A stretch of DNA of 64,000 nucleotides from Calothrix sp. FI2-JRJ7. Lineage in GTDB: Bacteria; Cyanobacteriota; Cyanobacteriia; Cyanobacteriales; Nostocaceae. The stretch's first letter is position 1. Each line of letters starts with the position of its first letter. Below, piece by piece: positions 6,806 through 64,000 of the stretch. The position numbers were made by a program, and so were the translations under genes. Under the pieces are notes generated by a model. That model did not search any database, was not told where the DNA came from, and saw only the letters and a program-made list of their open reading frames with translations. The stretch is taken from assembly GCA_019359675.1 (NCBI GenBank), contig JAHHGX010000091.1:124001-188000 (forward strand), given 5' to 3'.

Positions 6806-8561
6806 TTTGTTGAGGTACTTGTGCGGTACGTATGGACTGCATTAATTGCGTAAGAGCGTACTGTAAATGTATACCTGGGTCTGTTGCTACCCAACCTTCG
6901 GGTGTAAGCTGGCGAATTTCAAAGTGTAGGTGGGGACCTGTTGAAGCTCCTGTGCTGCCAACTAAACCAATGACTGTACCTTGTTGTACCCATTGACCTG
7001 GTTGCACGAAGAGTTGCGACATGTGACCGTAAAGTGTTTGCACGGCGCCGTTATGGTTAAGAACAGCAGTCAAACCGTAACCACCAACAAAGTCAGCGAC
7101 TTCAACTTGACCTGTAAAAGCGGCAATAACTGGTGTACCCATTGCAGCACCTAAGTCTGTACCAGAGTGGAATCTACTTTCGCCTGTAATTGGATGATTC
7201 CGCCAACCAAATATCGAGGTAATAGATGCTGGTATTGACAGAGGGAATATTAAGCCGTTGGGGTTGTAAGCAATTGCGGAACCCGAATAAGGTACACGAG
7301 GTAAAGTTGATTCTAATGGAATGTTATATGCGACTCTGCTATCACGCGGCGCCATGTTTACTGCGTTAACAGGTGCTGGTAGTGCCGCTCCATCTTGTGT
7401 AGGGGCGCTACCTAATGGTATCGGTGATGGAGCGAAATTATTTGGGGAAGGAATAAATCGATTTGGATGGTAAGTACTTTTATTCGATGAAATTGCAGCG
7501 CTTGCTACAGATAATGGAGCGCGGGGTACACTGCGAGTTACATTAACAGTGTTTACGTTACTTACATTTTGATTAGTTGCTGCAATTCGAGTTCGCCAAC
7601 TAGCTTGCCCACTAGCTTTAGATGTACTTGTTGAGTTTGTTGTACTAGTGATAGTAGGGCGGCTTACGTTTACTGCGCTTGCAATGCTAACGTTTTGACT
7701 TTTTCTTATCCAGCTTGGTTTGCTGGCAGTTTGGGCATTATTATCGTTGCCACCGTTAGAAGCAGTTATACCTCTTCTTAACGAAGCAGCGATAGGTGTC
7801 TTAAGACAATCAGCACGCACTCCACCAGCTGCTAAAATGGCACGGCAACCACTGGAACGCTCGGTTAACACTACTGTGTCTGGAGATTCGTATTTGCCTG
7901 TATTTCCTGTACTGTAGTCTGTAGGGTCAATATAAGCGTTGTTGTAATCTTTAACAGGTTTATCTGTATCAGCAGTATTAACTGGTTTGTTATTTCGCGA
8001 TATCTCAGGTAACTTACTTGGCACTTGAGCATTTTGTTCGCGCTTCGATTCTCTGGGTTGCGATGTCGCTTCAATACTTCTACGAATACGTACTTCAGGC
8101 GCCTGATTGCGTAAAGACTCAGCAATTTTGGGTCTTAAGTTTCTAATTGGGGGAATTTCTTGTGCTGACTCATTTTGGTTTGTTTTCCGAGCTTGGCGTA
8201 AACGTTGTATAGTTTCTGATGCTTGTTGGGAAGTACGTACTCTTGAACTATCGGAATTTTGTGCCTGTACTTTTCTTTTTAATCTCTCACGAAGCCTTGC
8301 ACGACGAGAAGAAAAATCATTTTCATTTGATGATTGTTTAGACTCAGTAGTGCTACGTTCTATTGTTACTTTTGGCGCCGATTCTCTAGAAGATTGCGTA
8401 TTTTCCGTAGTCGGCACAATATTATCAATTGCGGATTCGGTCTGAGCAAGCACCAACCCACTGCTCATTAGACTAATACTACTTAGCCAACAGAGGCTCT
8501 GGGCACCTAGAGAGCGATGCCATAAAATTTTTGAGTTACGGGCGTTTTTGCGCTGCGTCAT
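6801..8561 (-). CDS. Secreted M23-family (LytM-type) peptidoglycan peptidase
   Basis: A 586-residue exported protein. The N-terminus has a basic stretch followed by a hydrophobic signal (LCWLSSISLMSSGLVLAQT). A long low-complexity Ser/Thr/Asn/Arg-rich linker runs from about 40 to 430. The C-terminal catalytic domain (about 455-570) has FHSGTDLGAAMGTPV and HLHFEIR, which supply the zinc ligands of M23 endopeptidases, plus the YGHMSQ histidine. Such enzymes cut peptide cross-links in peptidoglycan during growth or cell separation. The long disordered linker suggests anchoring across the cell wall. The stop codon abuts a dispersed repeat. Confidence 0.9.
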   Translation of the reverse strand: MTQRKNARNSKILWHRSLGAQSLCWLSSISLMSSGLVLAQTESAIDNIVPTTENTQSSRESAPKVTIERSTTESKQSSNENDFSSRRARLRERLKRKVQAQNSDSSRVRTSQQASETIQRLRQARKTNQNESAQEIPPIRNLRPKIAESLRNQAPEVRIRRSIEATSQPRESKREQNAQVPSKLPEISRNNKPVNTADTDKPVKDYNNAYIDPTDYSTGNTGKYESPDTVVLTERSSGCRAILAAGGVRADCLKTPIAASLRRGITASNGGNDNNAQTASKPSWIRKSQNVSIASAVNVSRPTITSTTNSTSTSKASGQASWRTRIAATNQNVSNVNTVNVTRSVPRAPLSVASAAISSNKSTYHPNRFIPSPNNFAPSPIPLGSAPTQDGAALPAPVNAVNMAPRDSRVAYNIPLESTLPRVPYSGSAIAYNPNGLIFPLSIPASITSIFGWRNHPITGESRFHSGTDLGAAMGTPVIAAFTGQVEVADFVGGYGLTAVLNHNGAVQTLYGHMSQLFVQPGQWVQQGTVIGLVGSTGASTGPHLHFEIRQLTPEGWVATDPGIHLQYALTQLMQSIRTAQVPQQR

Positions 8562-47589: not shown

Positions 47590-48963
47590 CTAGTCTCCAC
47601 CGAGTTCAACCAACTTACCGATATTGAAATCAATCCTTATCCATCCTCGATTTTTCTGCAAATTTTGGATTAACAGCAAGAAAATTTGCCAATGAGGATT
47701 CATTAAAAACGGTAACGGGTCTTGCCAAGAAAAAATAGCATCCTTACCGCGCGTGATAATTTTTAATCTATAAACAAAATCTGACCACGAACGAGCATTA
47801 AATAGGCGCCATATTTCATGGTATGTCCAGTAAGTTGGTTTACTCGTAGATTTTGGTTGAATAGGTTCTACCAAATTACTTCCTGTACCTAGATATGCAT
47901 CTGCAACACTAGGATGGTTATAAAACATTGTGATAGCACTGTGAGTACGAGGATTACATTCAATAGCGTATATATTTCCGTCTTCTGCTTCAATAAAATC
48001 AAAAGAAACCTGTCCAGTAATACCTAACTCTTTTACAAAACGACTTACCCATTCAAAAATCTTAGGGTTATCAACATTTTCATAGTTGACTTGAAACGCA
48101 CTAGACTCACAGCAGCAGTGCAATGTAATTACCCCGTTGCGAACGGTACTGTGAGTGCAATATTCTTTACCTGGAATAAATTCTTGCATAATCCAGGGTT
48201 TTTCTGAACTAATAGGTAAACTTCTCACGAATGCTGCGGTTGCTTCGGGAGTATCGCAGGGAAGTTTAGTTAAATCTAACCTACGTACTGAGTCGTAAGG
48301 AATACTTTTAAGAATGTACTTACGCTTTTCTTGGGAGAAATCAAAGTTTATAACTTGTTCGGGGTCAGTAATTTTAAAAGACTTAGGAACTGATAGACCA
48401 AAACTTTGTGCAGTTTGTGCGAATGCGTACTTATCATCAAGCATTTGCGTCATTTCTGCATCGCAATGTATGACTTCACATTGTGGCAGTGCTTTCTTCG
48501 CAAGAGAATCATAGTAACTCGCAACAGGACTACACACAGGTACATAAACATCGATATTTTCTTTTTCTACGATGTCTACTAATGACTGAATATAACCTTC
48601 TGGGTCTTTTTCAGGCGCCTCAACTGTGTAAAATTTATTTACAGCAGACGAAAAGCGGTGTCCAGTTAACCAATATTTATGCGCTTCTAATAAGATAACT
48701 CGATGCCCTTGTTCATGGAACGAGCGCGCGAGTTGTAATGCTTTGGTCATTTTACCACCGCTAATCAATATATTTTTACGTTCTTTAGTGGTAACATTTT
48801 GAGGACGCAAACTTTTTAAAAGTAGTGCTACCAAAACAAGCGACGCATTTAATGGTAAAGCAAGCAATAGAAGTGTAAGGGTGCCTAAAGTTTTTAGCGA
48901 AGAAGCGCTAATACCAGGAGCATGTGTTTCTGCAGGTGAGGAAAGCGAAATTGACTGTGCCAT
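47590..48963 (-). CDS. mysC: ATP-grasp ligase MysC (4-deoxygadusol to mycosporine-glycine)
   Basis: MysC attaches glycine to 4-deoxygadusol using ATP to form mycosporine-glycine. The 457-residue protein has an N-terminal pre-ATP-grasp membrane-like helix (LGTLTLLLLALPLNASLVLVAL) then ILISGGKMTKALQLARSF, the ATP-grasp core with KYILKSIPYDSVRRLDL, MQEFIPGKEYCTHS and the metal ligands in FDFIEAEDGNIYAIECNPRT. The ATG at 48963 follows AGAAG; an in-frame TTG at 48975 is less likely. It starts 8 bases after mysB. Confidence 0.92.
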   Translation of the reverse strand: MAQSISLSSPAETHAPGISASSLKTLGTLTLLLLALPLNASLVLVALLLKSLRPQNVTTKERKNILISGGKMTKALQLARSFHEQGHRVILLEAHKYWLTGHRFSSAVNKFYTVEAPEKDPEGYIQSLVDIVEKENIDVYVPVCSPVASYYDSLAKKALPQCEVIHCDAEMTQMLDDKYAFAQTAQSFGLSVPKSFKITDPEQVINFDFSQEKRKYILKSIPYDSVRRLDLTKLPCDTPEATAAFVRSLPISSEKPWIMQEFIPGKEYCTHSTVRNGVITLHCCCESSAFQVNYENVDNPKIFEWVSRFVKELGITGQVSFDFIEAEDGNIYAIECNPRTHSAITMFYNHPSVADAYLGTGSNLVEPIQPKSTSKPTYWTYHEIWRLFNARSWSDFVYRLKIITRGKDAIFSWQDPLPFLMNPHWQIFLLLIQNLQKNRGWIRIDFNIGKLVELGGD

Positions 48964-48971
48964 GTGTATAA

Positions 48972-49802
48972 TCAAATTCTTCTAATCAAAGTAACGCCAT
49001 CACGCAAAGGTAATATTACTTGCTCCACACGGGAATCATTTGCGACCACTTGATTAAATTCAGTAATTGCTTTACCGTTAACACTACGTTGTTCGTTAGG
49101 TAGATATACTTGTCCTTGCATTAATGTGTTATCAACACATATCAAACCACCAGGCGCCAGTAAGCTGCTGTCTAATATGGTGTGGAAGTATTCAATATAC
49201 TCTTTTTTATCAGCGTCGATGAAAATTAAATCAAACGACTCACCGTTTTGAGCTAACTTACGTAGTGTTTCAAGAGCAGGCGCCACTTCTACACTAATTT
49301 TATTACCATGAGGCGAATTTTGAAAGCAAGCTTCAGCGAAGCTAGCAACATAAGAATCAACTTCACAGGCCACAAGCTTACCATCATTGGGTAATGCTTC
49401 CGCCATTGCCAACGCCGAATAACCAGTAAACATCCCCACTTCAAGAACACGTTTGGCTTTAGTCAAATAAACAAACATTTTCAGCGTTTGTCCTTCAACA
49501 TGTCCAGATAACATCTCTTGTTCGAGTTGACGAACAGTTTCACCATCCGAAAACCGCTTAGACCAATCTTCAGTATTCGTCTTTTGTGCAAGTGCCGTCA
49601 AAGCTTCAGATTCATTTGTCGTATATTCACCAATATAAGGTTCTAAACCTGCGGCTAGATTATATATGTGCTGTAGTGAAGTCAATAGCTCTGCGGAAGT
49701 ATTTGATGTTTGCGCGAGTTGTAATGTACTTTGCAGCAATTCCACCAAAATACCATGAGGTGTAACAGCTCTCGGTTGATTAATTTGAGTAGCAGTAGTC
49801 AT
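48972..49802 (-). CDS. mysB: O-methyltransferase MysB (desmethyl-4-deoxygadusol to 4-deoxygadusol)
   Basis: A 276-residue class I SAM-dependent O-methyltransferase of the catechol type. SAM motif is KRVLEVGMFTGYSALAMAEAL, then VACEVDSYVA, LIFIDADKKEYIEYF and GGLICVDNTLMQGQV. In the mycosporine pathway it methylates demethyl-4-deoxygadusol. The start at 49802 (MTTATQINQPRAV) removes a false N-terminal extension made of spacer and repeat sequence. The order mysA-mysB-mysC is the cyanobacterial standard. Confidence 0.92.
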   Translation of the reverse strand: MTTATQINQPRAVTPHGILVELLQSTLQLAQTSNTSAELLTSLQHIYNLAAGLEPYIGEYTTNESEALTALAQKTNTEDWSKRFSDGETVRQLEQEMLSGHVEGQTLKMFVYLTKAKRVLEVGMFTGYSALAMAEALPNDGKLVACEVDSYVASFAEACFQNSPHGNKISVEVAPALETLRKLAQNGESFDLIFIDADKKEYIEYFHTILDSSLLAPGGLICVDNTLMQGQVYLPNEQRSVNGKAITEFNQVVANDSRVEQVILPLRDGVTLIRRI

Positions 49803-49841
49803 GTAATTTTCAATTTGATATTTCAAATGTGGGATACCGTA

Positions 49842-49902
49842 GGGGCGGGTTAACCAATATCCTAGAACCATGTTCACAATCCCGTAAACCCGCCCCATAC
49901 AG
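49842..49902. repeat. GGGGCGGGTTAACC...GTAAACCCGCCCC inverted repeat in mysA-mysB spacer
   Basis: GGGGCGGGTTAACC and GTAAACCCGCCCC form an interrupted 13-bp stem over a loop of about 30 bases, between mysA and mysB. It resembles the pair at 31323-31440. It could attenuate transcription between the two genes (inference). Confidence 0.65.
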
Positions 49903-49955
49903 ATATCGTATGTTTTATTATACCCACCCATACAAGGCGCCGAACCAATATTTTA

Positions 49956-51185
49956 TTACACCGTCACCATTTCCATTTCTTCCGTGCCAATATAAGCATC
50001 AACACCAGCACCCTCACGTGGCAACTTTGCACAAATATCTCTATGTGCAGCAACAGCTTCGTCAAGCTCCTCACGAGTTAAATCATTGACAAAAAAGCAA
50101 GTTCCAATTGGTTTTGGCATTGCTGCACGTAATTTCCCATCACGAGTCTGAGTAATTGACTCAGTAGCGTGCCAAAGTAAATCACCTTCTAGTAGTGGAT
50201 GGTCAAGTGACAAACCAATGCGAGACATTAAATCGAGAATACGGTCACGTTCTTCTACAGAAATATATCCGCGTCGAGATGCAATTGTTGCCGATAATGC
50301 CATATCAATATTTACCGCATGACCATGATATAAAGGAACGCACGGCGCCAATTCCAGTGTAGGACTCCAAGTATGACCATAGGCAATTACTCGGTCAAGG
50401 TCAATTTCATGCAAATTAGGGGTTTCTAACTCCAGCATTGTTTTAATCGCTTCGTAATTCACCCGATGAGCGATTTCTTGTAAATGCTCTGAACCATTTA
50501 CATAACCAAAGTGAGTTTGTAGTAAATCATGACCGTACTCGTACAGCAGTTCAAAAACTTCAGAATTTGAGACTACGGCAATCTTGACTAGCTCTGCCAT
50601 TCCGTTACGAACTTGTGCAATAGGTAGAGTTTTTAAGAACGAAAAGTCAAGAATTACCTTTTGTGGTGCATGATAGGCGCCTAAACGGTTTTTCAACTTC
50701 TTGTGATTGACCGCAACTTTAATTGCCACACCTGCATCAATTAAACCAATAAGCGTTGTCGGAATACGGATATAGTTAGTTTTACGACGATACGCAGAAC
50801 AAGCAAAACCCACTACATCAGTAACTAGTCCACCACCCACTACCAAAACTGGTTCTTTACGAATCAAACCAAAATCAGCAAACGCATCTACAACCGATTC
50901 AAACGTCGCTAGCGTCTTTGCAGGTTCGGTAATAGTAACAGGATGTACCGTCAAATCAATGTCGTAATAACGGAAGTAAGCGCAAATTTGCTCTCCATAC
51001 AAACGGTTAACGTTCGCATCAACCACTGCCAAACAGCGTCCAAACGGTTGGTAGCTGTCTGCCACTTCAGTATTTTTAATATCAAATGCACCGTTGACAT
51101 ACTCTAGACTGAAGTCTATTTTTTCATACCCAGTAACGTGAAACGCTTTTTCAGTCGCTGTAAAAGATGCGTGAGGTATACCCAT
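49956..51185 (-). CDS. mysA: Dehydroquinate synthase homologue MysA (demethyl-4-deoxygadusol synthase)
   Basis: MysA converts sedoheptulose-7-phosphate (or a shikimate-type intermediate) to demethyl-4-deoxygadusol. It is a 409-residue member of the 2-epi-5-epi-valiolone/dehydroquinate synthase family, with [52 protein letters not shown] and [14 protein letters not shown], and the metal histidine near [12 protein letters not shown]. The start is the ATG at 51185 ([13 protein letters not shown]), because AAGGACGAGAGAT lies just upstream as a ribosome site; a TTG at 51215 would swallow that site. Confidence 0.95.
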
Positions 51186-51325
51186 ATCTCTCGTCCTTGA
51201 TTTAATAATTGACAATCGAAAAATTGAAAATACTTTGCTTTAACGTCAGTCACCGCTTCTAAAAATCTACGAAAATCTAGTTCTCATAGTAAAAGCCCAC
51301 GGTATATCTTTAGCGCCAAAAACTA

Positions 51326-52402: not shown

Positions 52403-53011
52403 TTATTCGCGTCTTTCTGTAGTTTCCTCGGTTACTTGCTCGGTTGAACAAACGCTACCGCGCGCGCCCCTCTCAATATTGAATTTTTCGCAATCACGTT
52501 TTTGAGGACGTTGTAATGACCAACCATAAGGCTTATCACCAGTAACTAGACCGTTAGACAAGGTTGTTAAACGAAAGTTGGCGCCTCGCATGTTTACCAT
52601 CATGCTGGTTGATCCTTTAAGGTTTGCACCCTCCAAGTTGGCGCCCATCATGCTAGTAAACCTCATATTGGCATTTTCTAGGGATGCTGACTTTAATAAG
52701 GCACCTGTGAAAGAAGTAGCAGTAAGATTTGTATTACTTAATATAGCACCTTCCAGATTTGCACCAGTTAAGTCGGCACCAGTTAAGTTTGAGCCGCTAA
52801 AATTGGCGCCTTTGAGGTTGGCATCGCGTAAAATCACCCTAGTTAGATTAGCAGAGCTTAAGTCGGCGCCGCTCAAGTCACAGCGAGAACACACACCAGT
52901 AGCCTTAAACTGCTCTAAATCTTGTTGGTTGACTGCTTTGGCTTGTTGAGTTAATCCCAAACAAGCTAAAACCGCTAAAGTAGCAAAAATTGTATGTTGT
53001 TTATGTAGCAT
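52403..53011 (-). CDS. Exported pentapeptide-repeat protein
   Basis: A 202-residue protein. A signal peptide (MLHKQHTIFATLAVLACLGL, then TQQAKA) is followed by about 20 tandem A(D/N)LxG pentapeptides from residue 35 to 150 (CDLSGADLSSANLTRVILRD), forming a right-handed quadrilateral beta helix, then a basic C-terminal tail with two cysteines. Cyanobacteria have many such proteins of unknown role in the lumen or periplasm. GGCGCC occurs four times in its repeat, which codes Gly-Ala and similar pairs. Confidence 0.9.
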   Translation of the reverse strand: MLHKQHTIFATLAVLACLGLTQQAKAVNQQDLEQFKATGVCSRCDLSGADLSSANLTRVILRDANLKGANFSGSNLTGADLTGANLEGAILSNTNLTATSFTGALLKSASLENANMRFTSMMGANLEGANLKGSTSMMVNMRGANFRLTTLSNGLVTGDKPYGWSLQRPQKRDCEKFNIERGARGSVCSTEQVTEETTERRE

Positions 53012-53431
53012 ATTTTTAGAATTTTACCAATCGTGCGTATAGCCATACTTAACATATACGACTTTTTTCGCAAACAATAGGAATAAAGAAAATGTAAAGA
53101 AATAGTAAAATAAGTATAAACTATACACTGACATAGGTTGTTTTTGTACGATAAGTGTAATCTAACAAACAGAAAACCTCAGTAACGCTTGTGCGTATTA
53201 CAGATGAGGCGCATGTAAACATGAAGAGTCTGTAAAAACTATGTAAAAATACTATAAATTCGCGTGTTTGAACCACCGAATATTGCACGTAGAGATTAGA
53301 ATGGACATAACTGCTAATTATACAGAAACTCTATAGTCTAAGCCTTATGTAATCCCCCGGTCAGATAATGACTGGGGGATAAATATTTTATGATATTCAT
53401 ATTATTTTATGATATTCATATTATCTTTTTA
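53012..53431. other. AT-rich intergenic region with one strong hairpin
   Basis: The 420 bases between the pentapeptide gene and the kinase gene hold the hairpin at 53352-53380 and a direct repeat TTATGATATTCATATTA near 53388 and 53408. No gene seen. Confidence 0.5.
53352..53380. terminator. ATCCCCCGGTCA/TGACTGGGGGAT hairpin
   Basis: A 12-bp stem with one G-T pair and a 5-nt loop, followed on the plus strand by AAATATTTTA. It lies 51 bases past the stop of the minus-strand kinase gene and may terminate it, although the T run is on the other side. Confidence 0.55.
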
Positions 53432-55237
53432 TTATTTCCAACCTAAAAGCTTTAACCAAGGAACTACTAAATAATGACTTATAGCTAGGTAAAAGCTGTT
53501 GAAAATACCTAGCAAGCTAAAAAAGATAACTTTAGGCGCCAGTTGAGATGCTTCTGTAGAGAGTAGAAAGTTGAATAAGCTAGGTGACAAAATACCAAGA
53601 TTAATTAGTAAAGCAAAAGTTAAGGCTGTACCGAAAGCGCTAGTTAGTGCATAAACTATGTGATGACTACGTAGTCCTAAACCAAGAGTTAGCAAAGAAA
53701 CCGCGATTAATATCAACCCCATTAATCCTTCGGCTGTAACTGAGTAAGGAAGATTTGCACTGGGTACACTAATACCAGCTAATACTACCCATCCCAAACT
53801 GTAGCCAATAATACTTGTAATTAAAGCGATGAAGTAACGGCGCCTTTGTCCAAATGCACCGCTAATAGTTAGTGCCCATGAGGTTCCTAAACCAGCAACC
53901 GCAAATAATATTATTTCTGACCCTGACACATTGCTTGTATTATTCAACACGCCTGGAAGTTGGTTAGCAATATATACAGAAAGTTGTTTTCCCCAGATGG
54001 TGTTATTCGCGAGTAGTAAACCAACGATTGTACCAATACACGCGCCAATTGCAGCGAGGAGCATTGCCCAAGTAGTACTGAGACAAGCGAGAATAGTATT
54101 AATAAACGTCTTGACTGTAAAAAGTACCGTTTGAGAAGTAGCTTGTGCGAATGCAGTAGTTATTTGTACGCTTGTACCTTTTAACCGCTGCCAGAAGTTA
54201 GATAACGGTGATGCGGTGTTATTAACTTGATGGGTAATTTGAGTAAATTTTTTCTGAACGTTTTGCCCAACCTGAGAAAATAATGATATAGCAGGCGCCG
54301 CTTGAGAAATACTAGCGAGTCTTTTTTGGATAACGGTAGCGGATGCCGGACGAGAGCGGACATCGTATTTAACCATTTCGTCGAGTAAATCGCCCAATTT
54401 GGGTTTAACGTCAACTAAATGGCGCCAGCGTAACTCTCCTGTAACAGGGTCTTCCAAATCTGCTGGGTTTTTCCCAGTAAGTAATTCTATCATCGTTCGA
54501 CCAAGCGCATAAAAATCGGCTTGGGGCCCAACGTTAGCACCAGTTAGCTGCTCTGGGGGACTATAACCCGACGAAAACAACCGCGTTGAGCGACTAGGAA
54601 ACCGCAGCAAGGCCGAACTAACTTGCTTGACTCCACCAAAGTCAATTAATACTAGCTGGTCTCCACGTACCGCCCCACGAGAAAAGGCGCCAGTACGTAG
54701 CATAATATTAGAGGGTTTAATATCGCGATGGATAATTTTACGCGAATGCAAGTGATTTAAAATATCAATCGCTTGAAGCAGCCAGTTGAGTACTAATACT
54801 TGAGGACAACCTTGTGGATAGTGCTTTTGAATTTCCTCCAGCGTCAACCCATGAATTTTTTCCATCACCAAACATGGTAGTTTGCGAGGTTTGGGGTGTG
54901 AAAACTCAACCTGAAAATGCCCGCAAATATCAACAATAGGAACTCCAGGGTGTTCGAGATTACATAATATTTCTGCTTCTTGTACAAACAGTTCGAGTGC
55001 TTTGGGTGAATCTTCGATTAAGACTTTTAACACCTTTTCGGTTTGCGCTATTGTATCCCAAACCGTATAAATTTGGGCAAATCCACCAGAACCTAGGGTT
55101 TGCAATGGCACATAACGTTCAAGTAGCTGTAGATTGGCGCCACAGCTATTGCAAAACTTATTACCCCAAGGTTGCGGATAGGGACGCAAACAATCAGGAT
55201 TTATACAATGAATCGCACTCTTGTTTACCTGGGACAC
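53432..55237 (-). CDS. Ser/Thr protein kinase with zinc ribbon and C-terminal membrane domain
   Basis: A 601-residue protein. A zinc ribbon (INPDCLRPYPQPWGNKFCNS, CGANL) precedes the kinase domain (about 43-300) with LGSGGFAQIYTVWD, HRDIKPSNIMLR (catalytic loop, Asp about 168), IDFGGVKQ and SGYSPPEQLTGAN. A linker (300-380) and about six membrane helices (380-601) follow. The kinase is intact. The start is GTG at 55237. It resembles the broken kinase at 10627 only in general plan. Confidence 0.88.
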   Translation of the reverse strand: MSQVNKSAIHCINPDCLRPYPQPWGNKFCNSCGANLQLLERYVPLQTLGSGGFAQIYTVWDTIAQTEKVLKVLIEDSPKALELFVQEAEILCNLEHPGVPIVDICGHFQVEFSHPKPRKLPCLVMEKIHGLTLEEIQKHYPQGCPQVLVLNWLLQAIDILNHLHSRKIIHRDIKPSNIMLRTGAFSRGAVRGDQLVLIDFGGVKQVSSALLRFPSRSTRLFSSGYSPPEQLTGANVGPQADFYALGRTMIELLTGKNPADLEDPVTGELRWRHLVDVKPKLGDLLDEMVKYDVRSRPASATVIQKRLASISQAAPAISLFSQVGQNVQKKFTQITHQVNNTASPLSNFWQRLKGTSVQITTAFAQATSQTVLFTVKTFINTILACLSTTWAMLLAAIGACIGTIVGLLLANNTIWGKQLSVYIANQLPGVLNNTSNVSGSEIILFAVAGLGTSWALTISGAFGQRRRYFIALITSIIGYSLGWVVLAGISVPSANLPYSVTAEGLMGLILIAVSLLTLGLGLRSHHIVYALTSAFGTALTFALLINLGILSPSLFNFLLSTEASQLAPKVIFFSLLGIFNSFYLAISHYLVVPWLKLLGWK

Positions 55238-55394
55238 AACTGTTTAAGAGACACTAGCTTAGTTGATTGTACTAAACACAGGGTAACGCGAACTGTGTCT
55301 CATTAACTATTGTTAAGCTTTTACAGGTATTGACGAGAAAACGAAAATAAATAGAAAGTAAAGTAATGTAAAATTTTGACACGGAGAAATAGAT

Positions 55395-56435
55395 TTGTTA
55401 GGTACCAATTCGGCATCAAATAGACTTGCTAAGATGATTTATGGCTATTGGCAAAGCCAGTGTCTTTATATAGCAACAAATTTAGGTATACCTAACCTGT
55501 TACAGTCGGAACCAATGACTGTAGAAGCGATAGCAGAACAAACTTCGACAAAAGTAGAAACTCTTTATGTTCTTCTTCGTGCATTAGCTCATCTAGGTGT
55601 GTTTGCAGAAAAACCTGGACGTGTATTTGCTGCAACAGAACTCTCAGAACTCCTGGTTACAGATGCAGAGCCAAGTTTAGGACATTTTTTGTTACATATT
55701 ACAGAACCTAGTATGTGGGATGCCTGGAGAGAATTAGGTGGTGCGCTGAAAACAGGGGAAGTCGCTTTTGAAAGGGCACATGGCAAAAATTTCTACGAGT
55801 TTTTCATGTCGGAAAACCTCGATAGTAAAAATTTGTTCAATAATGCCATGAGCTATTTAACGAATCAAGCAATTGATTCGCTGTTTGAGGTCTACGACTT
55901 CGGGCAATTTGATACAGTTATGGACGTTGGAGGCAATCGTGGTTCACTAATTGCCCATATTGTTAAGAAATTCGGATGTAAAGGTATATTGTTCGACCTT
56001 CCACATGAAGTTGAGATAGCTCCTGCTTTCCTCGCAAGTCAAGGAATTGATAGCCATACCGTGCAAGTTGTTGGCGGAAATGCTTTAGAGGAGTTACCAA
56101 AAGGTGCTTCGGCAATTGTTATGAAGTATTTCTTGTCTGTATTTAGTGTTGAAGACGCACGTCAAGTAATCGCTCGGTGTAGAGAAGCTCTTCCTCCACA
56201 AGGTAAAGTCGTACTTCTACAAACACTTGTTCCACCTCGCGGGGCGCCAGTAGAATATCCAGATGGAACTATCCCAGGTCTTGCCGCAGTTCAAATGATG
56301 GTGACAAATCCAGGGGGTTACTGGCGCACGGAAGAAGAATACAAGGAGTTGTTTAGTACCAGTGAGTTTCAACTAGAACAAGTGATTCACACGGGAACTA
56401 GTCTGACAGTGATGGAATTTAGCAAAAAGTCTTGA
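55395..56435 (+). CDS. SAM-dependent O-methyltransferase (dimerisation plus methyltransferase_2 type)
   Basis: A 346-residue enzyme of the caffeic acid/hydroxyneurosporene O-methyltransferase family. The N-terminal winged-helix dimerisation domain (SASNRLAKMIYGYWQSQCLY, ALAHLGVFAEKPGRVF) is followed by a SAM domain with MDVGGNRGSLIAHIVKKF and the catalytic His region replaced around AIVMKYFLSVFSVEDARQV. It starts with TTG at 55395, preceded by ACGGAGAAATAGAT. It would methylate a hydroxyl of a small metabolite. First gene of the plus-strand series that leads to the NRPS, although 257 bases separate it from the next gene. Confidence 0.85.
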   Translation: MLGTNSASNRLAKMIYGYWQSQCLYIATNLGIPNLLQSEPMTVEAIAEQTSTKVETLYVLLRALAHLGVFAEKPGRVFAATELSELLVTDAEPSLGHFLLHITEPSMWDAWRELGGALKTGEVAFERAHGKNFYEFFMSENLDSKNLFNNAMSYLTNQAIDSLFEVYDFGQFDTVMDVGGNRGSLIAHIVKKFGCKGILFDLPHEVEIAPAFLASQGIDSHTVQVVGGNALEELPKGASAIVMKYFLSVFSVEDARQVIARCREALPPQGKVVLLQTLVPPRGAPVEYPDGTIPGLAAVQMMVTNPGGYWRTEEEYKELFSTSEFQLEQVIHTGTSLTVMEFSKKS

Positions 56436-56442
56436 GCATCCT

Positions 56443-56479
56443 AAAAACCCGGTTTCGGAAAGAAACTGGGTTCCTTTTT
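56443..56479. terminator. AAACCCGGTTTC hairpin with T run (family C, degenerate)
   Basis: AAAACCCGGTTTCGGAAAGA is followed by AACTGGGTTCCTTTTTG. The arms pair imperfectly and end in a T run, a plausible terminator for the methyltransferase gene. Confidence 0.55.
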
Positions 56480-56692
56480 GTCATATTTGTAGATTTTCTA
56501 TAATTTTCTTTGGAAAATTATAAAAAATAGCTATAAATGTAGTTAATTACCTCTGCTGACAGATTTTTTTTTATATGTTGCACTCGGACAATTGTAATAA
56601 TATGTAATAATTGTGACATTATATACTTGTACGCCCCAAAAGCGACAAAGTAGCAAGGAATACAAATACATTTGATAATCTATTGGAAATTA

Positions 56693-57664
56693 ATGCTTAA
56701 GGTTAAATCGAAACTCCCTGGCGAACAACTATTCGCATCACCAACGACCATAGCACTTGCTTCTTTGTTACTTAGCTTAGTAGCTCTATCTTTCTCGCCA
56801 ATTCTGATCCGTTTGAGCGAAGGTGAACTGGGTCCTAACGCTACAATTTTTAATCGTTTTTGGATATCTACTGTCGCTTTTGTGCTGTGGAATCAATTTA
56901 CAGCAGCACGCAGGCAACTGTCGGGTAGTCAACCGGAATTACCGCAACGTTACACAATCCGGCAAATCTTGCTCTTGATAGGAGTTGGAGTTGTGATGTT
57001 TGCCACTCTAGCTCTTTGGGCTTGGTCTTTAGCTCATACCAGCGTCGCGAACTCTACCCTTATGCACAATTTGGCGCCACTGTTCACAGTTTGTGGGGGG
57101 TGGTTGATTTGGGGAAAGCGCTTTGATAGTAAATTCCTTAGCGGTATGTTCGTAGCAATAACAGGAGCTTGCCTCTTGGCATACCATGATTTTACCGAAG
57201 CTGCTACTGACAAACTACAAGGAGATTTAGCGGCAATACTATCAGCCGTTTTTCTTGGCTTATACCCACTTTTAGTAGAGCAACTACGAACTCAATTGAG
57301 TCCGGTGGTTATTATGACTTGGTGTTCTGCAATTGGCACGATTTTGCTTTTTCCTATCGTCATACTTACAGAAGGTCAGATTTTCCCCCATTCATTGCAT
57401 GAATGGATTTACGTAATTTCACTAGCATTGATATGCCAAATACTAGGGCTGGGACTTTACGCATATTCACTCAATTGGTTAACTTCAGGATTTGTTTCCT
57501 TATGCGATTTGTTTGTTCCCGTTCTTAGCACCCAAGAAGCTTGGGTGATTTTTTCGGAAAGTCCTAGCTGGGTTACTTTGGTCAGTTTTGGTGTAATTTT
57601 GGTAGGGGTATGTATAACTTCAACCAGCCAATCTGCTATTAAGACAGAAGCAGAATCAGCCTAG
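56693..57664 (+). CDS. EamA/DMT-family transporter
   Basis: A 323-residue membrane protein with ten hydrophobic helices in two EamA repeats. The first is TIALASLLLSLVALSFSPIL and FNRFWISTVAFVLW; the second begins GDLAAILSAVFLGLYPLLVE. EamA carriers export small polar metabolites and amino acids. The ATG at 56693 is chosen over a TTG at 56672. Placed between a methyltransferase and an oxygenase, it is a likely exporter of the cluster product. Confidence 0.85.
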   Translation: MLKVKSKLPGEQLFASPTTIALASLLLSLVALSFSPILIRLSEGELGPNATIFNRFWISTVAFVLWNQFTAARRQLSGSQPELPQRYTIRQILLLIGVGVVMFATLALWAWSLAHTSVANSTLMHNLAPLFTVCGGWLIWGKRFDSKFLSGMFVAITGACLLAYHDFTEAATDKLQGDLAAILSAVFLGLYPLLVEQLRTQLSPVVIMTWCSAIGTILLFPIVILTEGQIFPHSLHEWIYVISLALICQILGLGLYAYSLNWLTSGFVSLCDLFVPVLSTQEAWVIFSESPSWVTLVSFGVILVGVCITSTSQSAIKTEAESA

Positions 57665-57739
57665 TGGAGGTATGGAAATTGGAACGATTAAAGTTATTAT
57701 TTTATTAACTGGTGCATTTTTTAGCTTTACACTATAAAC

Positions 57740-58918
57740 ATGCAAAATTTTCCAATTTCTATTTCAAAAGACATAAAATTCAGGTTTTTACGAGATGACG
57801 AAAAAACATACAGCACTAATGAAAAAGAGCTACCTTTAGTAATTGAGCCAGTACAAGAAAAATCTTTTGCACATCTGTTACGATTACTGGGTGAAAACGG
57901 CGCCGAGTTTAATAAACTACTAGATAAATACGGCGCCGTTTTGTTTCGAGGATTTGAAGTTGAGGATGGTAATCAATTTCAAAAAGTTTTAGAGCTATTA
58001 AATATCCAGTTAGAGTCAGTTTACCACTTTGGTAGCGCTCATCGTGTACGAATAACCGATAAGGTCTTCACTTCTTCAGAAGCTCCACCGGATACCATTA
58101 TTGCTCCTCATAATGAACTGAATATGGTACCTTGGCGCCCTAATATACTTGCTTTTTTTTGTCAAGTACAACCAGACGTATATGGTGAAACTCCGATAAT
58201 AAATACAGAAAAACTATTTAACGACTTATCTCCGAGTTTACAACACAAAATTGCCAATTATCCGCAGCGATTTGTGCGATATGTTCCTGAACATCTACTA
58301 GGATTAGTCTTTGAGGGACTATCGAGAGAGGAGATTAGTAAACTTCTCACTGAACAAGAATTTGATTTTAACTGGGAAGAAGATGGCTCTTTAAATTTTG
58401 AGTGTTCTTATATTACTTTATTTAGTCACCCAAGAACATCCCGACTCTGCTTTTGCCTTAGCATTGTTGATTGTTTAGTAAGTAGAGAATGGTATAAAAA
58501 CATCAGTCAACGGTATTCGTTAGGCAAAAAGCTCTATTACAATTGGCTACCAGCTTCGTTGTATAAAGAATATCAGCAAAGATTAACAACAGCAGCGACT
58601 GTTGTTGATGGTTCGCAAAAACGAACTAGCACCTTGAATGCATATTTTGTCAACCGTAACAATGAATCTACAACAATGACCGAAGCAGAAGCAAAGGAAT
58701 TGGGAAAAGCTGAATGGAAAAATGCAGCTATTTTTCAATGGAAGCAAGGGGATATTCTTCTCATCGATAACCTACAAGTTGCTCATAGTAGACTGAATAC
58801 TGCACAGAAGCGAAAGATACTCACTGCTTTTGGAAACATGTGTAACATCCGAGATATGAAACCAACTACTCTTGCTCTAACTTCAGCAAAGGAATTAGAA
58901 GCCAGCAAAATATCGTAA
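57740..58918 (+). CDS. TauD/TfdA-like Fe(II)/2-oxoglutarate oxygenase
   Basis: A 392-residue oxygenase. GAVLFRGFEVEDGNQF is the TauD entry motif. The iron ligands are in APHNELNM (His-x-Glu, about residue 124) and VAHSRL (distal His, about 350). GETPIINTEKLF and QGDILLIDNLQVAHS are typical of the SyrP-like subgroup that modifies amino acids bound to carriers or free metabolites. Target unknown; candidates are a mycosporine or a glycine-loaded product. It lies 75 bases after the EamA gene and overlaps the convergent BT1 carrier by 53 bases. Confidence 0.85.
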   Translation: MQNFPISISKDIKFRFLRDDEKTYSTNEKELPLVIEPVQEKSFAHLLRLLGENGAEFNKLLDKYGAVLFRGFEVEDGNQFQKVLELLNIQLESVYHFGSAHRVRITDKVFTSSEAPPDTIIAPHNELNMVPWRPNILAFFCQVQPDVYGETPIINTEKLFNDLSPSLQHKIANYPQRFVRYVPEHLLGLVFEGLSREEISKLLTEQEFDFNWEEDGSLNFECSYITLFSHPRTSRLCFCLSIVDCLVSREWYKNISQRYSLGKKLYYNWLPASLYKEYQQRLTTAATVVDGSQKRTSTLNAYFVNRNNESTTMTEAEAKELGKAEWKNAAIFQWKQGDILLIDNLQVAHSRLNTAQKRKILTAFGNMCNIRDMKPTTLALTSAKELEASKIS

Positions 58919-60089
58919 ATACGGCACTAATAATGACAAGAACGTAAACTGGAGTTCCCCAACCATATAAGTAACCTCCCAAAATAGGCCCAGGTTGTCT
59001 AACCAACTGATACACTGACATTAGTATTGCATAGGTGGCGCCTTCTACACCAACAGGACAAGACCTTGCTGCAATTTCCAAGACACCCAGCATGGCTATC
59101 ATTGAAAAAAATCCAAAAAATACACTAACCAGCATAGCGCTTTGTGCATTAGTTATGAATAATAGACCAATTGTAGAGGCACCTGTAAACCCAATTGCTA
59201 AATTTAACAACAGTTTTCGCGAAATCCTAAAGGCAAAGATACCAAACATGAGGGCGCCTATACCATTAGACAAAGCTTCAAATGTACCCAAAATACCTAT
59301 AAATTGAGAGTCAAAACTCAAAGCATCCTTGTAGTAATAGACAAGGTAATTTACTAGTGGTGGCACAAGAGTAAACTGAAGGCAAGCAATAAAAGCTATA
59401 ACAGCAAGGAAACGTCGTGATTTTACTGCTAACCAAACAGCTTTTAAATTAGTTTTAACTGGAACAGTGTTACGCTCCTTTTTTTCATCTGCAAGTAATA
59501 TGAAGGTTGCAACTAAACCAATCAATGGTACAATTGCAGTAAATATAAACGCCATTGATAAATTAGAATTTTGAGCAAACCAGCCGCCAACAAAATACAG
59601 TAGAGCTTGACCAAAACTTAAAGAAGTCCATTGAATTGCCTGTAAGCGAGCCGTGTTGTTTAAAATCCGACCCTGAACGACCATTATTTTATCTGTTAGT
59701 ACGTCGCTAAAGGCTATGAAAAAATTAACTAAAATTAGACTAATCGCCAGCACCCAATATGTGTTAACTTGAAATATACCTAACCCTAATAAGACAGCAA
59801 GCGTTAGCACATAGCAAATAAAAAAGTAGCTTTTGAACTGGTAACCAAATAATGAAACAGCATCTCCAATCATTCCGTAAATTGGTCTAACTAACCAGGG
59901 AGAGAAAATGAGACTGCTAAAGGTTGCTAACTGTGCTGGTAAAAGTCCAAGATTCTCTTTGAGATAAATGGTCAGCGGAAGACCGAAAAGTCCTGGATTA
60001 CATCCATAAGTTTGAATTAAGTAAAACAGAACCATGATGCCAATAAGTTGCTGTATTGTCATCGAATCTTGCCTAGTTGTGTTGGACAT
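58866..60089 (-). CDS. BT1/folate-biopterin-type MFS carrier
   Basis: A 407-residue 12-helix carrier. The segment IFSPWLVRPIYGMIGDAVSL and FGYQFKSYFFIC resembles the BT1 family (folate/biopterin transporters of cyanobacteria, plants and protozoa). Other MFS assignments are possible. Its 3' end overlaps the TauD gene end by 53 bases on the opposite strand. It reads away from the NRPS gene start, 97 bases apart, so 60090-60186 is a divergent promoter region. Confidence 0.8.
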   Translation of the reverse strand: MSNTTRQDSMTIQQLIGIMVLFYLIQTYGCNPGLFGLPLTIYLKENLGLLPAQLATFSSLIFSPWLVRPIYGMIGDAVSLFGYQFKSYFFICYVLTLAVLLGLGIFQVNTYWVLAISLILVNFFIAFSDVLTDKIMVVQGRILNNTARLQAIQWTSLSFGQALLYFVGGWFAQNSNLSMAFIFTAIVPLIGLVATFILLADEKKERNTVPVKTNLKAVWLAVKSRRFLAVIAFIACLQFTLVPPLVNYLVYYYKDALSFDSQFIGILGTFEALSNGIGALMFGIFAFRISRKLLLNLAIGFTGASTIGLLFITNAQSAMLVSVFFGFFSMIAMLGVLEIAARSCPVGVEGATYAILMSVYQLVRQPGPILGGYLYGWGTPVYVLVIISAVFTIFCWLLIPLLKLEQE

Positions 60090-60186
60090 TAGTCACCTGA
60101 TTTGATAGTTACCTGATTTAATTAAGCCATTAAACTTTATAATAGATTAAATTCTTAGCAGCGTCACCCTGAAAGTATCAATTTCT

Positions 60187-63100
60187 ATGTCTTCTATGTC
60201 AAAACTTCAAGCATATTGGGAAAAACATCTATCCGCAGAATTACCTGTACTCGAATTTCCTACTAATTTACCTCGTTCTACTAAAAAATATAATTGCGCT
60301 TCTTATAAGTTTGTAATCAATAATAAACTAACTGGGTTACTTAAACAACTGGCAAATAATGAAAGCGTCAGCATTGATAACGCTTTGTTAGCAGCATTTA
60401 AAGTTTTGCTTTACCGTTACACAAGTGAGAAAGAAATTATTGTTGGTTTGCTACTCACTAAGCTTAACTCTAACGTAGTCGTTTCAAAAGATTTGATTTC
60501 GGAAACTACCTCATTTAAAACCTTTTTGATCCAAGTAAGTGATACTGTTTCAGAAATAAGCGAGTATCAAGATTATCCCTTTGGTTCATTGGTAAAACAA
60601 TTACAGTCAAAGTATAATTCAAGCCCAAAACCTATTTGTCAAGCTTTATTTACTTACCAAGTTGAACTAGAGTACCAGAAACCACCCCAGGAGAATATAG
60701 AATTCGATTTATGCTTGGAAGTCATCGACACTTCTGATTCATTACTGTGCAATTTTAAATATAACAGCAATTTATTAGATAAAATAACAGTTGCTCAGTT
60801 CAGTGGGCATTTCCAAAAGTTACTGGAAAGTATTGTATCAAATCCAGAACAAGCAGTAGCCCAGTTATCATTGTTGAGTGAGAGGGAACGAGACGAAATA
60901 CTGATTGAGTGGAACGCAACTGAAAAAGATTGTGATTTTACAACTCTTCATCAATTAATTGAGGCACAGGTCGAGCGAACACCAGATACAGTAGCGGTTT
61001 CATTTGCTTCTAAAGAGCTTACTTATCGTGAACTAAACTCCTGTGCAAATCAACTAGCACACTATTTACAAACACTGGGAGTTAAACCAGGGGTATTGGT
61101 TGGTATTTGCATTGAGCGTTCTTTAGAAATGGTAGTAGGACTTTTAGCTATCCTCAAAGCAGGCGCGGCTTACCTACCTTTAGACCCAGGTTATCCACAA
61201 GAACGTTTAGAATTAATATTATCTGATTCTCAGGCGCCAGTATTGCTGACTGATAATGCAAAGTTCTTTTGTGATAATGAACAAAGGAAAATAATTTGTT
61301 TACAAACACACCAAGAACATATTGCTACCCATAGCCAAGAAAACTTGGCGCCATGTGCGACCGCCGAAAATCTAGCATATGTTATTTACACCTCTGGTTC
61401 AACAGGCAAACCGAAAGGAGTAGAAATTCCTCATCGCGGTGTGGTAAATTTTCTAAAATCGATGCAGCATGAACCTGGAATAACAGCATCAGATGTACTA
61501 TTGGCAGTTACTACAGTATCATTTGACATTGCCGCTTTAGAGTTATATTTACCTTTAATTACTGGCGCTCTTGTAGTATTAGCTAGCCGAGAAATAGCTA
61601 GTGATGGGAGGCGCCTGTTAGAGCTAATTAATAGTAGTGGTGCTACGATAATGCAAGCCACGCCAGCGAGTTGGCGAATGTTACTCGCAACTGGATGGAG
61701 TGGTTCTGAGGGATTAAAAATTCTTTGTGGTGGTGAAGGTTTAACAAGTGAGTTGGCGCAGCATTTATTAGACAAAGGTGAATCAGTATGGAATTTATAT
61801 GGACCGACTGAAACTACTATTTGGTCAACTGTTTGCAAAGTAGAAGCCGATAAGTTATCTCATGCTTTAGTGCCTATCGGTCGTCCCATTGCTAACACAC
61901 AAATTTACATATTAGATCAGCATCTCCAACCAGTACCAATAGGAGTAAGCGGCGAATTATATATAGGTGGTGCAGGAGTTGCGCGTGGCTATCTTAACCG
62001 TCCTGATTTAACTAGCGAACGGTTTATTGCTAATCCTTTATTACCAGGTTTGCGTTTTTATAAAACTGGAGACTTAGCTCGTTATCTACATGATGGCACT
62101 ATTGAATACATTAGTCGAATAGACAACCAAGTAAAAATTCGGGGTTTTCGGATTGAACTAGGAGAAATAGAAAACGCGTTATCTGCTCATCCAGAAGTGC
62201 GAGAAGCAGTCGTCATTACCCGTTGCGAACAATCATCAGAAAAACAAATAGTAGCTTATATTACTACAAATTGCGAACCAACTCCAGGCAAGTTGCGTGA
62301 TTTTTTGAGACAAAGGCTACCAGATTACATGATACCCGTAGCTTTTGTGATATTAGAGGCATTACCCTTAACACCGAGTGGAAAAGTAAACCGTCGTGCT
62401 TTGCCAAAGCCAACAGCTTCAAGCTTTAGCCAACACGATGAATTTATCGCACCGCGCAATGACACCGAACACAGACTCGCAAAAGTGTGGTCAGAGATTT
62501 TAAACATTCAACCAATAGGTATTAAAGATAACTTCTTTGAAATTGGTGGAAGTTCTCTTTCAGCAATATTCTTGATAGCAGCGATTGGGCAGCAGTTTGG
62601 TAAGGAATTACCGATTTCAACACTACTCACCAATCCTATTATTGAAGAATTTGCTCTACTTCTTAATACCACAGATACTTTTGATAACTCCCCCCTAATT
62701 CCTATCCAGCCAAAAGGTAACAAAGCGCCATTTTTCTGCGTACATCCCGCAGGTGGTCATGTTATGAGCTACTTGAAATTAGCGCAGTACCTAAGTAACG
62801 ACCAACCATTTTATGGCTTACAAGCACAAGGATTTAATGGAGAAGAACCTTTAACGCGAGTCGAGGATATGGCTAGCGTGTATATTGAAGCAATTCAAAA
62901 GTTTCAACCAAATGGGCCATATTATATTGGTGGGTGGTCATTTGGGGGAGTTGTGGCGTATGAAATAGCGCAGCAATTACACAAAATGGGACATGAAGTC
63001 TCTTTGTTAGCGATAATAGACTCCTATGTTCCAATTCTCTTAGATAAAAACAAGAAAATTGACGCTCCTTATTTAGTTGGCGCCCTTTCGAGGTATTTTG

Positions 63101-63501
63101 GTGGAATGTTAGGTCAGGATAATTTGGTAAACAGTAATGAAATGAAGCACTTGAATGCTCTTGAACAAATCGACTACATCCTTGACAAAGCAGTAGAAGC
63201 CAAAATATTACCACCATCAAATCAAAGCCAACAAAACCGACGCATCGTCGATGTATTAGTTGGCACCCTAAAAGCAACTTATTCTTACGTCAAACAGCCA
63301 TACCCAGGAAAAGTCACCGTATTTAGAGCTAAAGAAAAGCATATTATGGCGCCTGACCCAACCCTCGTATGGGTAGAATTCTTCTCTATCATGGACGCAG
63401 AAGATATAACAATCATTGATGTTCCTGGTAATCATTACACATGCGTCTTAGAACCCCATGTACAAGTATTAGCAGAACACTTTAAATCACAATTGGCGTA
63501 G
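60187..63501 (+). CDS. Single-module NRPS: partial C, A (predicted glycine), T, TE
   Basis: A 1104-residue synthetase. Residues 1-235 are only the C-terminal lobe of a condensation domain (YWEKHLSAELPVLEFPTNLP start); the HHxxxDG motif is absent, so it cannot condense normally. The A domain (about 255-760) has VIYTSGSTGKPKGVEIPHRG, FDIAALELYL, NLYGPTETTIWS and LPLTPSGKVNRRAL. Reading the ten Stachelhaus positions by alignment to GrsA gives D-I-L-Q-L-G-L-I-W-K, a glycine-type code. The carrier serine is in FFEIGGSSLSA (about 789), and the TE has GGWSFGGVV (about 917) with a His in GNHYTCVLE. It should load glycine and release or transfer it, a logic like the MysE of shinorine clusters. Confidence 0.85.
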   Translation: MSSMSKLQAYWEKHLSAELPVLEFPTNLPRSTKKYNCASYKFVINNKLTGLLKQLANNESVSIDNALLAAFKVLLYRYTSEKEIIVGLLLTKLNSNVVVSKDLISETTSFKTFLIQVSDTVSEISEYQDYPFGSLVKQLQSKYNSSPKPICQALFTYQVELEYQKPPQENIEFDLCLEVIDTSDSLLCNFKYNSNLLDKITVAQFSGHFQKLLESIVSNPEQAVAQLSLLSERERDEILIEWNATEKDCDFTTLHQLIEAQVERTPDTVAVSFASKELTYRELNSCANQLAHYLQTLGVKPGVLVGICIERSLEMVVGLLAILKAGAAYLPLDPGYPQERLELILSDSQAPVLLTDNAKFFCDNEQRKIICLQTHQEHIATHSQENLAPCATAENLAYVIYTSGSTGKPKGVEIPHRGVVNFLKSMQHEPGITASDVLLAVTTVSFDIAALELYLPLITGALVVLASREIASDGRRLLELINSSGATIMQATPASWRMLLATGWSGSEGLKILCGGEGLTSELAQHLLDKGESVWNLYGPTETTIWSTVCKVEADKLSHALVPIGRPIANTQIYILDQHLQPVPIGVSGELYIGGAGVARGYLNRPDLTSERFIANPLLPGLRFYKTGDLARYLHDGTIEYISRIDNQVKIRGFRIELGEIENALSAHPEVREAVVITRCEQSSEKQIVAYITTNCEPTPGKLRDFLRQRLPDYMIPVAFVILEALPLTPSGKVNRRALPKPTASSFSQHDEFIAPRNDTEHRLAKVWSEILNIQPIGIKDNFFEIGGSSLSAIFLIAAIGQQFGKELPISTLLTNPIIEEFALLLNTTDTFDNSPLIPIQPKGNKAPFFCVHPAGGHVMSYLKLAQYLSNDQPFYGLQAQGFNGEEPLTRVEDMASVYIEAIQKFQPNGPYYIGGWSFGGVVAYEIAQQLHKMGHEVSLLAIIDSYVPILLDKNKKIDAPYLVGALSRYFGGMLGQDNLVNSNEMKHLNALEQIDYILDKAVEAKILPPSNQSQQNRRIVDVLVGTLKATYSYVKQPYPGKVTVFRAKEKHIMAPDPTLVWVEFFSIMDAEDITIIDVPGNHYTCVLEPHVQVLAEHFKSQLA

Positions 63502-63503
63502 GG

Positions 63504-63526
63504 GGTGGGCAGTGCCCACCTTACTA
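63504..63526. terminator. GGTGGGC-AGT-GCCCACC hairpin (family B)
   Basis: GGTGGGCAGTGCCCACC at 63504-63520 forms a 7-bp stem with a 3-nt loop, followed by TTACTATT. It lies between the convergent NRPS and ATP-grasp genes, 3 bases after the NRPS stop. Confidence 0.65.
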
Positions 63527-63549
63527 TTAATAATTCATCCGTTGCAAAT

Positions 63550-64000
63550 TTAAGCTTCTTCCCAATTAATTGGCAAAGCATACTCTGAAATACTAGAAAA
63601 ATCACGATTTTTATTGCTAGTTTCTGCATCCAAAACTTTCGCAACCTTATTGTAAATCTCTTCAGCCTCTTGCAGCGAGTCACCAATACTTGTTAAACCT
63701 AATTTACCAAACTGTGACAAACAGCCCATTAAATGGAATACTGTTCCTGTCTCGGTACCAGAGTCAAAGTGCAAGCGGTGATGAGCAATAATATCCATCA
63801 AGTCATTCGGCAATAGCCCTTTATAACGGTCTTTTTGTAGGTTGTCGGTGGCAATATAGTATTTTGGGCGCCCTTGTTGGCTGTAAAATAATCCAGTTGA
63901 AGGGTTATAACGACCGTTCGTTAGTAGTTTTAAAGTCATGAATGGGTGAGTTGTACCACCTTTTCGCAAGTTAATTTCAATTGCTTGAATATCCCACTCG
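63550..64000 (-). CDS. PGM1-type ATP-grasp peptide ligase, C-terminal end (partial)
   Basis: The gene continues past the right edge. In the window it encodes WDIQAIEINLRKGGTTHP, the acidic metal-binding end of an ATP-grasp domain (EINLRKGG), then LKLLTNGRYNPSTGLFYSQQ and a helical C-terminal domain ending in EYALPINWEEA. These match the C-terminus of cyanobacterial proteins related to the pheganomycin peptide ligase PGM1, which join a small starter acid to peptides. Whether it belongs to the NRPS cluster or begins the next one cannot be seen. Confidence 0.75.
   Translation of the reverse strand, partial: EWDIQAIEINLRKGGTTHPFMTLKLLTNGRYNPSTGLFYSQQGRPKYYIATDNLQKDRYKGLLPNDLMDIIAHHRLHFDSGTETGTVFHLMGCLSQFGKLGLTSIGDSLQEAEEIYNKVAKVLDAETSNKNRDFSSISEYALPINWEEA

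Follow-up and report, generated by a model that had tools for sequence, protein, structure and literature searches.

A nonribosomal peptide synthetase locus beside mysABC in Calothrix sp. FI2-JRJ7 as a probable tailoring cassette for mycosporine-like amino acids

What does a small nonribosomal peptide synthetase (NRPS) locus make when it stands beside genes for a methyltransferase, an oxygenase and two carriers, and which of its neighbors belong to it? The question is raised by a window of 64,000 nucleotides from Calothrix sp. FI2-JRJ7 (bases 124001-188000 of the 440-kb contig JAHHGX010000091.1; genome 8.66 Mb), whose closest named relatives in a scan of named genomes are Calothrix and Dulcicalothrix. 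An earlier note on this DNA had proposed an unassigned six-gene cluster ending in a PGM1-type ligase, and all six genes were found where it placed them. Our analysis indicates that the block at 55327-63541 is very probably a tailoring cassette for mycosporine-like amino acids (MAAs), which moves an apparently orphan NRPS locus into a known sunscreen pathway. The cassette and its genes are as follows:

55327-63541, no strand assigned: the whole cassette, its limits drawn from two congeners with no cassette at this position
55395-56435, plus strand: mysF, methyltransferase of the O-methyltransferase family (PF00891, 8.9e-33)
56672-57664, plus strand: EamA-family carrier, candidate MAA exporter (PF00892, 1.5e-32)
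57740-58918, plus strand: mysI, TauD/TfdA Fe(II)/2-oxoglutarate oxygenase (PF02668, 3.2e-21)
58866-60089, minus strand: BT1/MFS-family carrier, optional cassette member (PF03092, 7.5e-31)
60187-63501, plus strand: mysE, glycine-type NRPS (condensation C-lobe remnant at residues 4-239, adenylation domain 259-733, peptidyl carrier protein (PCP) domain 763-823, thioesterase from 848)

Five of the six proteins match Pfam families above the curated cut-offs (Methyltransf_2 with Dimerisation; EamA; TauD; BT1; and Condensation, AMP-binding, PP-binding and Thioesterase); the sixth, the PGM1-type ligase, has only a match below the cut-off to NCBIfam BesA (150.8 bits, cut-off 750). By sequence, the methyltransferase, TauD and glycine-NRPS trio matches the mysF, mysI and glycine-specific mysE type named in PMC10510106 (MysF, methyltransferase; MysI, TauD/TfdA oxygenase; MysE, glycine-specific), and the three stand together in the window with EamA and BT1 interspersed. 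The combination, which the earlier note did not recognize, is thus already known: mysFIE was proposed in 2023 as an extension of the MAA pathway for aplysiapalythine-type MAAs (PMC10510106). A described cluster therefore exists, though its description, as given in that source, consists of genome mining and metabolite detection and not of enzyme tests. The set in that paper includes Calothrix sp. PCC 7716 (here L007), whose methyltransferase, TauD and NRPS proteins are 95%, 94% and 94% identical to those of the window. New here are the link to EamA, the cassette boundary, the exclusion of the PGM1-type ligase, the reduced condensation domain and a serine substitution in MysF.

Left of the cassette, on the other strand, lie three genes (47593-51215) that the earlier note omitted; with them the locus adjoins a full MAA core, mysA, mysB and mysC being side by side 4-8 kb from the cassette, with mysA at about 4 kb:

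47593-48975, minus strand: mysC-type ATP-grasp ligase (PF02655, 1.4e-7; NCBIfam PRK06849, 'hypothetical protein', 527 bits against a cut-off of 406)
48975-49931, minus strand: mysB-type O-methyltransferase (PF01596, 9e-57), lying between mysA and mysC in relatives
49956-51215, minus strand: mysA, sugar-phosphate cyclase, probably of the desmethyl-4-deoxygadusol-synthase type (PDB 5tpr scores 656 bits, 4p53 269 bits)
52403-55237, minus strand: two further genes, for a pentapeptide-repeat protein and a Ser/Thr kinase, in the interval from mysA to the cassette

We take 5tpr, to which mysA is closer, to be the Anabaena enzyme and 4p53 to be an EEVS; their PDB labels are 3-dehydroquinate synthase and Cyclase. 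Other mysA-like genes were also seen. A 5′-truncated second copy of 266 residues (L058:9968-10768, plus strand; G000 contig 77) has no mysB or mysC in the fetched 20 kb, and five congeners carry a near full-length second copy, whose surroundings, viewed for G428 (L064), likewise contain no mysB or mysC. In L053 a mysA-like fragment (7161-7487; query 314-413, 55%) lies between MysE and BT1, so the cassette may once have travelled with a mysA.

MysC places the first glycine onto 4-deoxygadusol (PMC10510106), and the route given in that paper runs from mycosporine-2-glycine to palythine and on to aplysiapalythine C once the amine is methylated; aplysiapalythine E is reported from the strain. In the pathway we propose, MysA, MysB and MysC would yield mycosporine-glycine. 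MysE would load glycine on its carrier domain; the free amine would react with the second carbonyl of the ring, unaided by a functional condensation domain, and the thioesterase would release mycosporine-2-glycine. MysI may then hydroxylate the alpha carbon of one glycine, whose breakdown would leave the amine of palythine; MysF would methylate that amine to an aplysiapalythine C type, and EamA, accompanied by BT1 in this and a few other genera, would move the product across a membrane. For cassette, chemistry and transport taken together, we put the probability of this explanation at roughly 0.78. Gene content, linkage, adenylation code, boundary and active-site residues are observed; the chemical steps, which follow PMC10510106 and family knowledge, and the transport are inferred.

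To place the window among its relatives, MysI loci were drawn from a named-genome scan (16 loci), 388 genomes of the order (10 with MysI) and 217 of the family (21 with MysI), sets that overlap. Twenty-six loci, one per genome, were compared (the window, L006-L020 and L048-L057; L021, another contig of the assembly that holds L019, was not counted separately). Within the fetched stretches, mysC is present in 20 loci, MysF in 21, glycine MysE in 19, EamA in 21, BT1 in eight and a PGM1-type ligase in five; some stretches stop at contig ends (e.g. L019 and L049), which makes absences from them provisional, and the mysF of L018 is represented by its first 98 residues at the stretch end. MysF accompanies all 19 loci with a DILQLGLIWK NRPS and two of the seven others. 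The methyltransferase, TauD, glycine-NRPS and EamA genes are mostly kept together in relatives, BT1 and the PGM1-type ligase are not, and gene order varies: mysABC-F-EamA-I-E (L010, L054 and L055), mysABC-EamA-I-E followed by a reversed F (L011 and L015) and F-EamA-I-E-mysC (L016).

The cassette limits come from two congeners, G426 (L059) and G427 (L065), in which the kinase gene is followed by the PGM1-type gene with no cassette gene between. Matches to the window flanks stop and resume at 55326/63542 against G426 and at 55319/63555 against G427, so that about 8.2 kb was gained in the window or lost in the congeners as one block, in either direction. G427 carries the pentapeptide-repeat protein and kinase at the same place; in G426 the kinase alone was sought, and found. 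The cassette of G426 lies at another site (L013). In G427 a serine-type MysE with the code DVWHISLIDK stands directly beside mysC, and no MysI was found in the genome at E<=1e-40. DVWHISLIDK is a serine code. Beyond the right-hand limit stands one flanking gene:

63550-64000, minus strand, running on to 65154: PGM1-type ATP-grasp ligase, C-terminal part in the window

Extension past 64000 completed this gene (63550-65154, 534 residues), and the ligase falls outside the unit.

The NRPS carries the code DILQLGLIWK, as the earlier note had read it (the ten positions were placed by motif positions), together with a PCP domain (PP-binding, 1.3e-11); the same code occurs in 19 of the 21 aligned NRPS rows, the window included. 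The two Trichodesmium rows differ and are proline-like, a tentative assignment, since the fourth letter of their code shifts with the alignment. Addition of glycine by MysE is therewith quite likely, as judged from the code. A small glycine-bearing product with carriers, as suggested before, keeps the glycine code and a cassette-specific EamA on its side; BT1 is found in eight of the 26 loci. When the glycine MysE of the window is compared with the serine MysE of G427, the two are 52% identical ahead of the specificity core, 32% within it, 79% just beyond it and 68% in the thioesterase, a pattern expected if the core of the adenylation domain was exchanged. No second MysE was detected in the window genome with a serine-type condensation domain as query (E<=1e-60), and a serine-type adenylation-PCP-thioesterase query found the resident MysE (56%) as its best match and the sole one above 43%.

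The description of this NRPS as one complete module holds for the adenylation, PCP and thioesterase domains; the condensation domain is a C-lobe alone (PF00668 positions 191-456 of 456) and lacks a complete HHxxxDG-bearing fold. A full condensation-adenylation-PCP-thioesterase module was accordingly ruled out, the N-lobe being gone: a tblastn search (E<=1e-3) of the window from 45001 with Trichodesmium and Brasilonema N-lobes gave no match to a separate or frame-shifted upstream lobe. Among the 15 condensation-family matches in the window genome, 14 are nearly full length, 12 of them with HHxxxD, and MysE alone covers just 191-456. Sixteen of the 19 glycine MysE proteins, the window's included, are 1101-1149 residues long. 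In 13 of these the upstream frame stays open for 3-39 residues, too few for an N-lobe; for L007, L008 and L020, which are outside that list, an N-lobe search gave no match. A fragment of an NRPS N-lobe was seen in L057.

Both lobes are kept in the Brasilonema-group glycine types (L010, L054 and L055), in Trichodesmium (L018 and L021) and in four serine types encoded no more than 3 kb from mysA (L065/L066, L067, L068 and L069, the last three reading nine of the ten serine-code letters). Instead of the second His of HHxxxDG, all nine two-lobed MysE read have another residue: Cys in three of the serine types, Gln in the fourth, Ser in the three of the Brasilonema group and Gln in L018 and L021 (the L021 residue was read from the translation; two of the nine domains were aligned to solved condensation domains). 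With this catalytic His gone, a catalytic role for the MysE condensation domain is unlikely; an additional condensation domain in one serine MysE has been suggested as possibly affecting the product (PMC8073705). The retained C-lobe evolves under constraint, though loosely: in pairwise NG86 estimates for six pairs, its dN/dS is 0.28-0.44, and the adenylation, PCP and thioesterase domains give 0.145-0.23, 0.15-0.27 and 0.09-0.135, respectively.

In MysF, Ser occupies the position of the catalytic His of the LHDW/VHDW-type motif in all 20 readable rows of 21, a difference from the PF00891 O-methyltransferases; solved relatives with LHDW or VHDW are 6c5b, CalO6, AlpH and MmcR. The substitution removes the usual base for O-methylation, which fits an amine substrate without proving one. 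Of the 27 MysI rows, all have the distal His and Arg, and all 26 in which the TauD motif HxE is readable have it (as HNE); TauD is the only Pfam family of MysI at E<=0.001, with no match to PhyH, and no NCBIfam family was matched. Structure models of MysI and MysF (mean pLDDT 57.4 and 58.2) were too low in confidence for use.

In all 20 relatives with EamA, the carrier gene lies on the MysI strand; the distance is 62-415 bases in 17 of them and 1.3-2.5 kb in the other three. Among 208 family genomes, 16 have EamA matches of at least 72%, every one with MysI (E<=1e-70); the next match (G516, 49%) is again in a MysI genome, the best in a MysI-free genome at that threshold is 48%, and an EamA paralogue near the window has 26% identity. 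This distribution argues, on balance, for EamA as an MAA carrier. No mention of transport, permease, condensation or EamA was found in the main text of PMC10510106, and among the literature matches listed no paper combines mycosporine and EamA, a statement about those matches and not about the wider literature.

Several points weigh against the proposed pathway. PMC10510106 calls all of its mysFIE clusters discontiguous from mysABC and describes the MysI mechanism as in need of validation. In six of the 26 loci (L009, L012, L013, L048, L053 and L057) mysC is outside the fetched stretch. Although mysA is present in all 26 MysI-locus genomes, it occurs in 166 of 217 family genomes anyway, so its presence is weak evidence and linkage the stronger argument. 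Five loci (L012, L017, L048, L051 and L052) have no EamA near MysI, and seven have MysI without glycine MysE, five of them with MysD (L017, L049, L050, L051 and L057) and two from Trichodesmium (L018; L019 with L021) with MysD and a proline-like MysE (for L019, MysD was located on L021), so MysI is not tied to glycine placed by MysE. Contig 40 of the window genome encodes a one-module NRPS with 43% identity to serine MysE over nearly the whole adenylation-PCP-thioesterase length. The mysC-free stretches would suit a separate glycine-derived metabolite whose genes lie near mysABC by chance; that is very improbable, since 20 of 26 loci are linked to mysC in several gene orders, all six unlinked genomes carry mysA elsewhere, and the NRPS thioesterase shares 68% identity with its counterpart in the serine-type MysE that a congener carries next to mysC. 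It is, if anything, still harder to credit that the PGM1-type ligase and both carriers belong to one six-gene cluster, as the earlier note had it. The genes stand together in the window and in four congeners, but such a ligase is found in 80 of 100 order genomes, the five cassette loci that have one (the window's among them) are all from the window's genus, and it directly follows the kinase in the two congeners without a cassette there; these observations rule out a six-gene cluster that includes the ligase.

Within the MAA cassette, the roles of the two tailoring enzymes can be read in more than one way. MysF is probably an N-methyltransferase; that it instead methylates an oxygen or ester (e.g. 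a carboxylate or ring hydroxyl) is rather unlikely. O-methyltransferases make up the majority of its named solved relatives, in a list that also holds a C-methyltransferase and the hydroxylase RdmB, but the motif His is Ser in every readable orthologue, and amine methylation is predicted in PMC10510106, where aplysiapalythine E comes from a mysFIE strain. MysI, for its part, probably removes a glycine oxidatively, and which glycine is less clear. The seven loci without glycine MysE, all with MysD, suggest that it may act on the glycine added by MysC, a substrate that all MysI loci could share. It is a serious possibility that MysI attacks this glycine, as said of MysH, whichever ligase adds the second amino acid, and in that case the published assignment to the C3-glycine placed by glycine MysE would be mistaken or beside the point. 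The MysI proteins of L018, L049, L050 and L057 are more distant from that of the window (64-66% identity, against 77-96% in aligned glycine loci), which leaves room for another substrate; unlike these four, the MysI of L017, also without glycine MysE, is 78% identical.

Mycosporine-2-glycine is nearly symmetric. No MysD was found in the window genome at E<=1e-30; 17 of the 27 genomes searched have one. Two loci with MysD differ in content. In Trichodesmium, L018:1381-21083 contains a divergent mysA (38%), EamA, MysI, two MysD, a MysE of proline-like type and the first part of mysF, with proteins resembling a sodium/solute symporter and an NAD-binding dehydrogenase, named by eye; this locus likely makes a different product. 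In Scytonema tolypothrichoides, L017:2185-12350 has two extra mysC, two mysD and MysI, with no glycine MysE or mysF in the locus.

Taken jointly, these observations permit a broader, tentative picture that we hold to be possible rather than probable. The MysE class may form the C-N bond of MAAs with a condensation domain that was first dead and then lost, the serine and proline types still having both lobes but not the second catalytic His, and most of the glycine types being down to the C-lobe. In parallel, a cassette of about 8.2 kb with its own EamA exporter, which would be a dedicated MAA carrier, could replace a serine-type mysE and so convert a shinorine genotype to a methylated-palythine genotype in one step. 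G427 and the window offer a natural contrast within one genus that is usable for asking how MAA structure is set, and the EamA carrier gene, the Ser-for-His change of MysF and a MysE without a working condensation domain are testable in a heterologous host.

Among known systems, actinobacterial MAA clusters with HAD and TauD genes resemble the window in having a TauD-family oxygenase for which palythine formation is suggested (preprint PMC11888242); compared by description only, they differ in that the description includes no glycine NRPS, EamA or mysF. The MysH of palythine clusters is, like MysI, an Fe(II)/2-oxoglutarate oxygenase proposed to remove the glycine side chain; by description and Pfam family, the two are set apart, MysH being a relative of phytanoyl-CoA dioxygenase and MysI a TauD/TfdA enzyme (PMC10510106; PMC11378024). 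The congener G427 shares mysABC orthologues and an adenylation-PCP-thioesterase NRPS (thioesterase 68%) with the window, and differs in its serine-type code, its full-length condensation domain, the position of the NRPS beside mysC and the lack of a cassette between kinase and PGM1-type ligase. The glycine MysE proteins of PMC10510106 are described as adenylation-carrier protein or adenylation-carrier protein-thioesterase enzymes, whereas that of the window has a C-lobe remnant in front. Also close in gene content are Nostoc sp. UHCC 0926 and its relatives, where MysF, MysI and glycine MysE are likewise side by side, with mysABC in the same genome; the mysFIE genes there are on a plasmid (PMC10510106), whereas the cassette of the window lies 4 kb from mysA.

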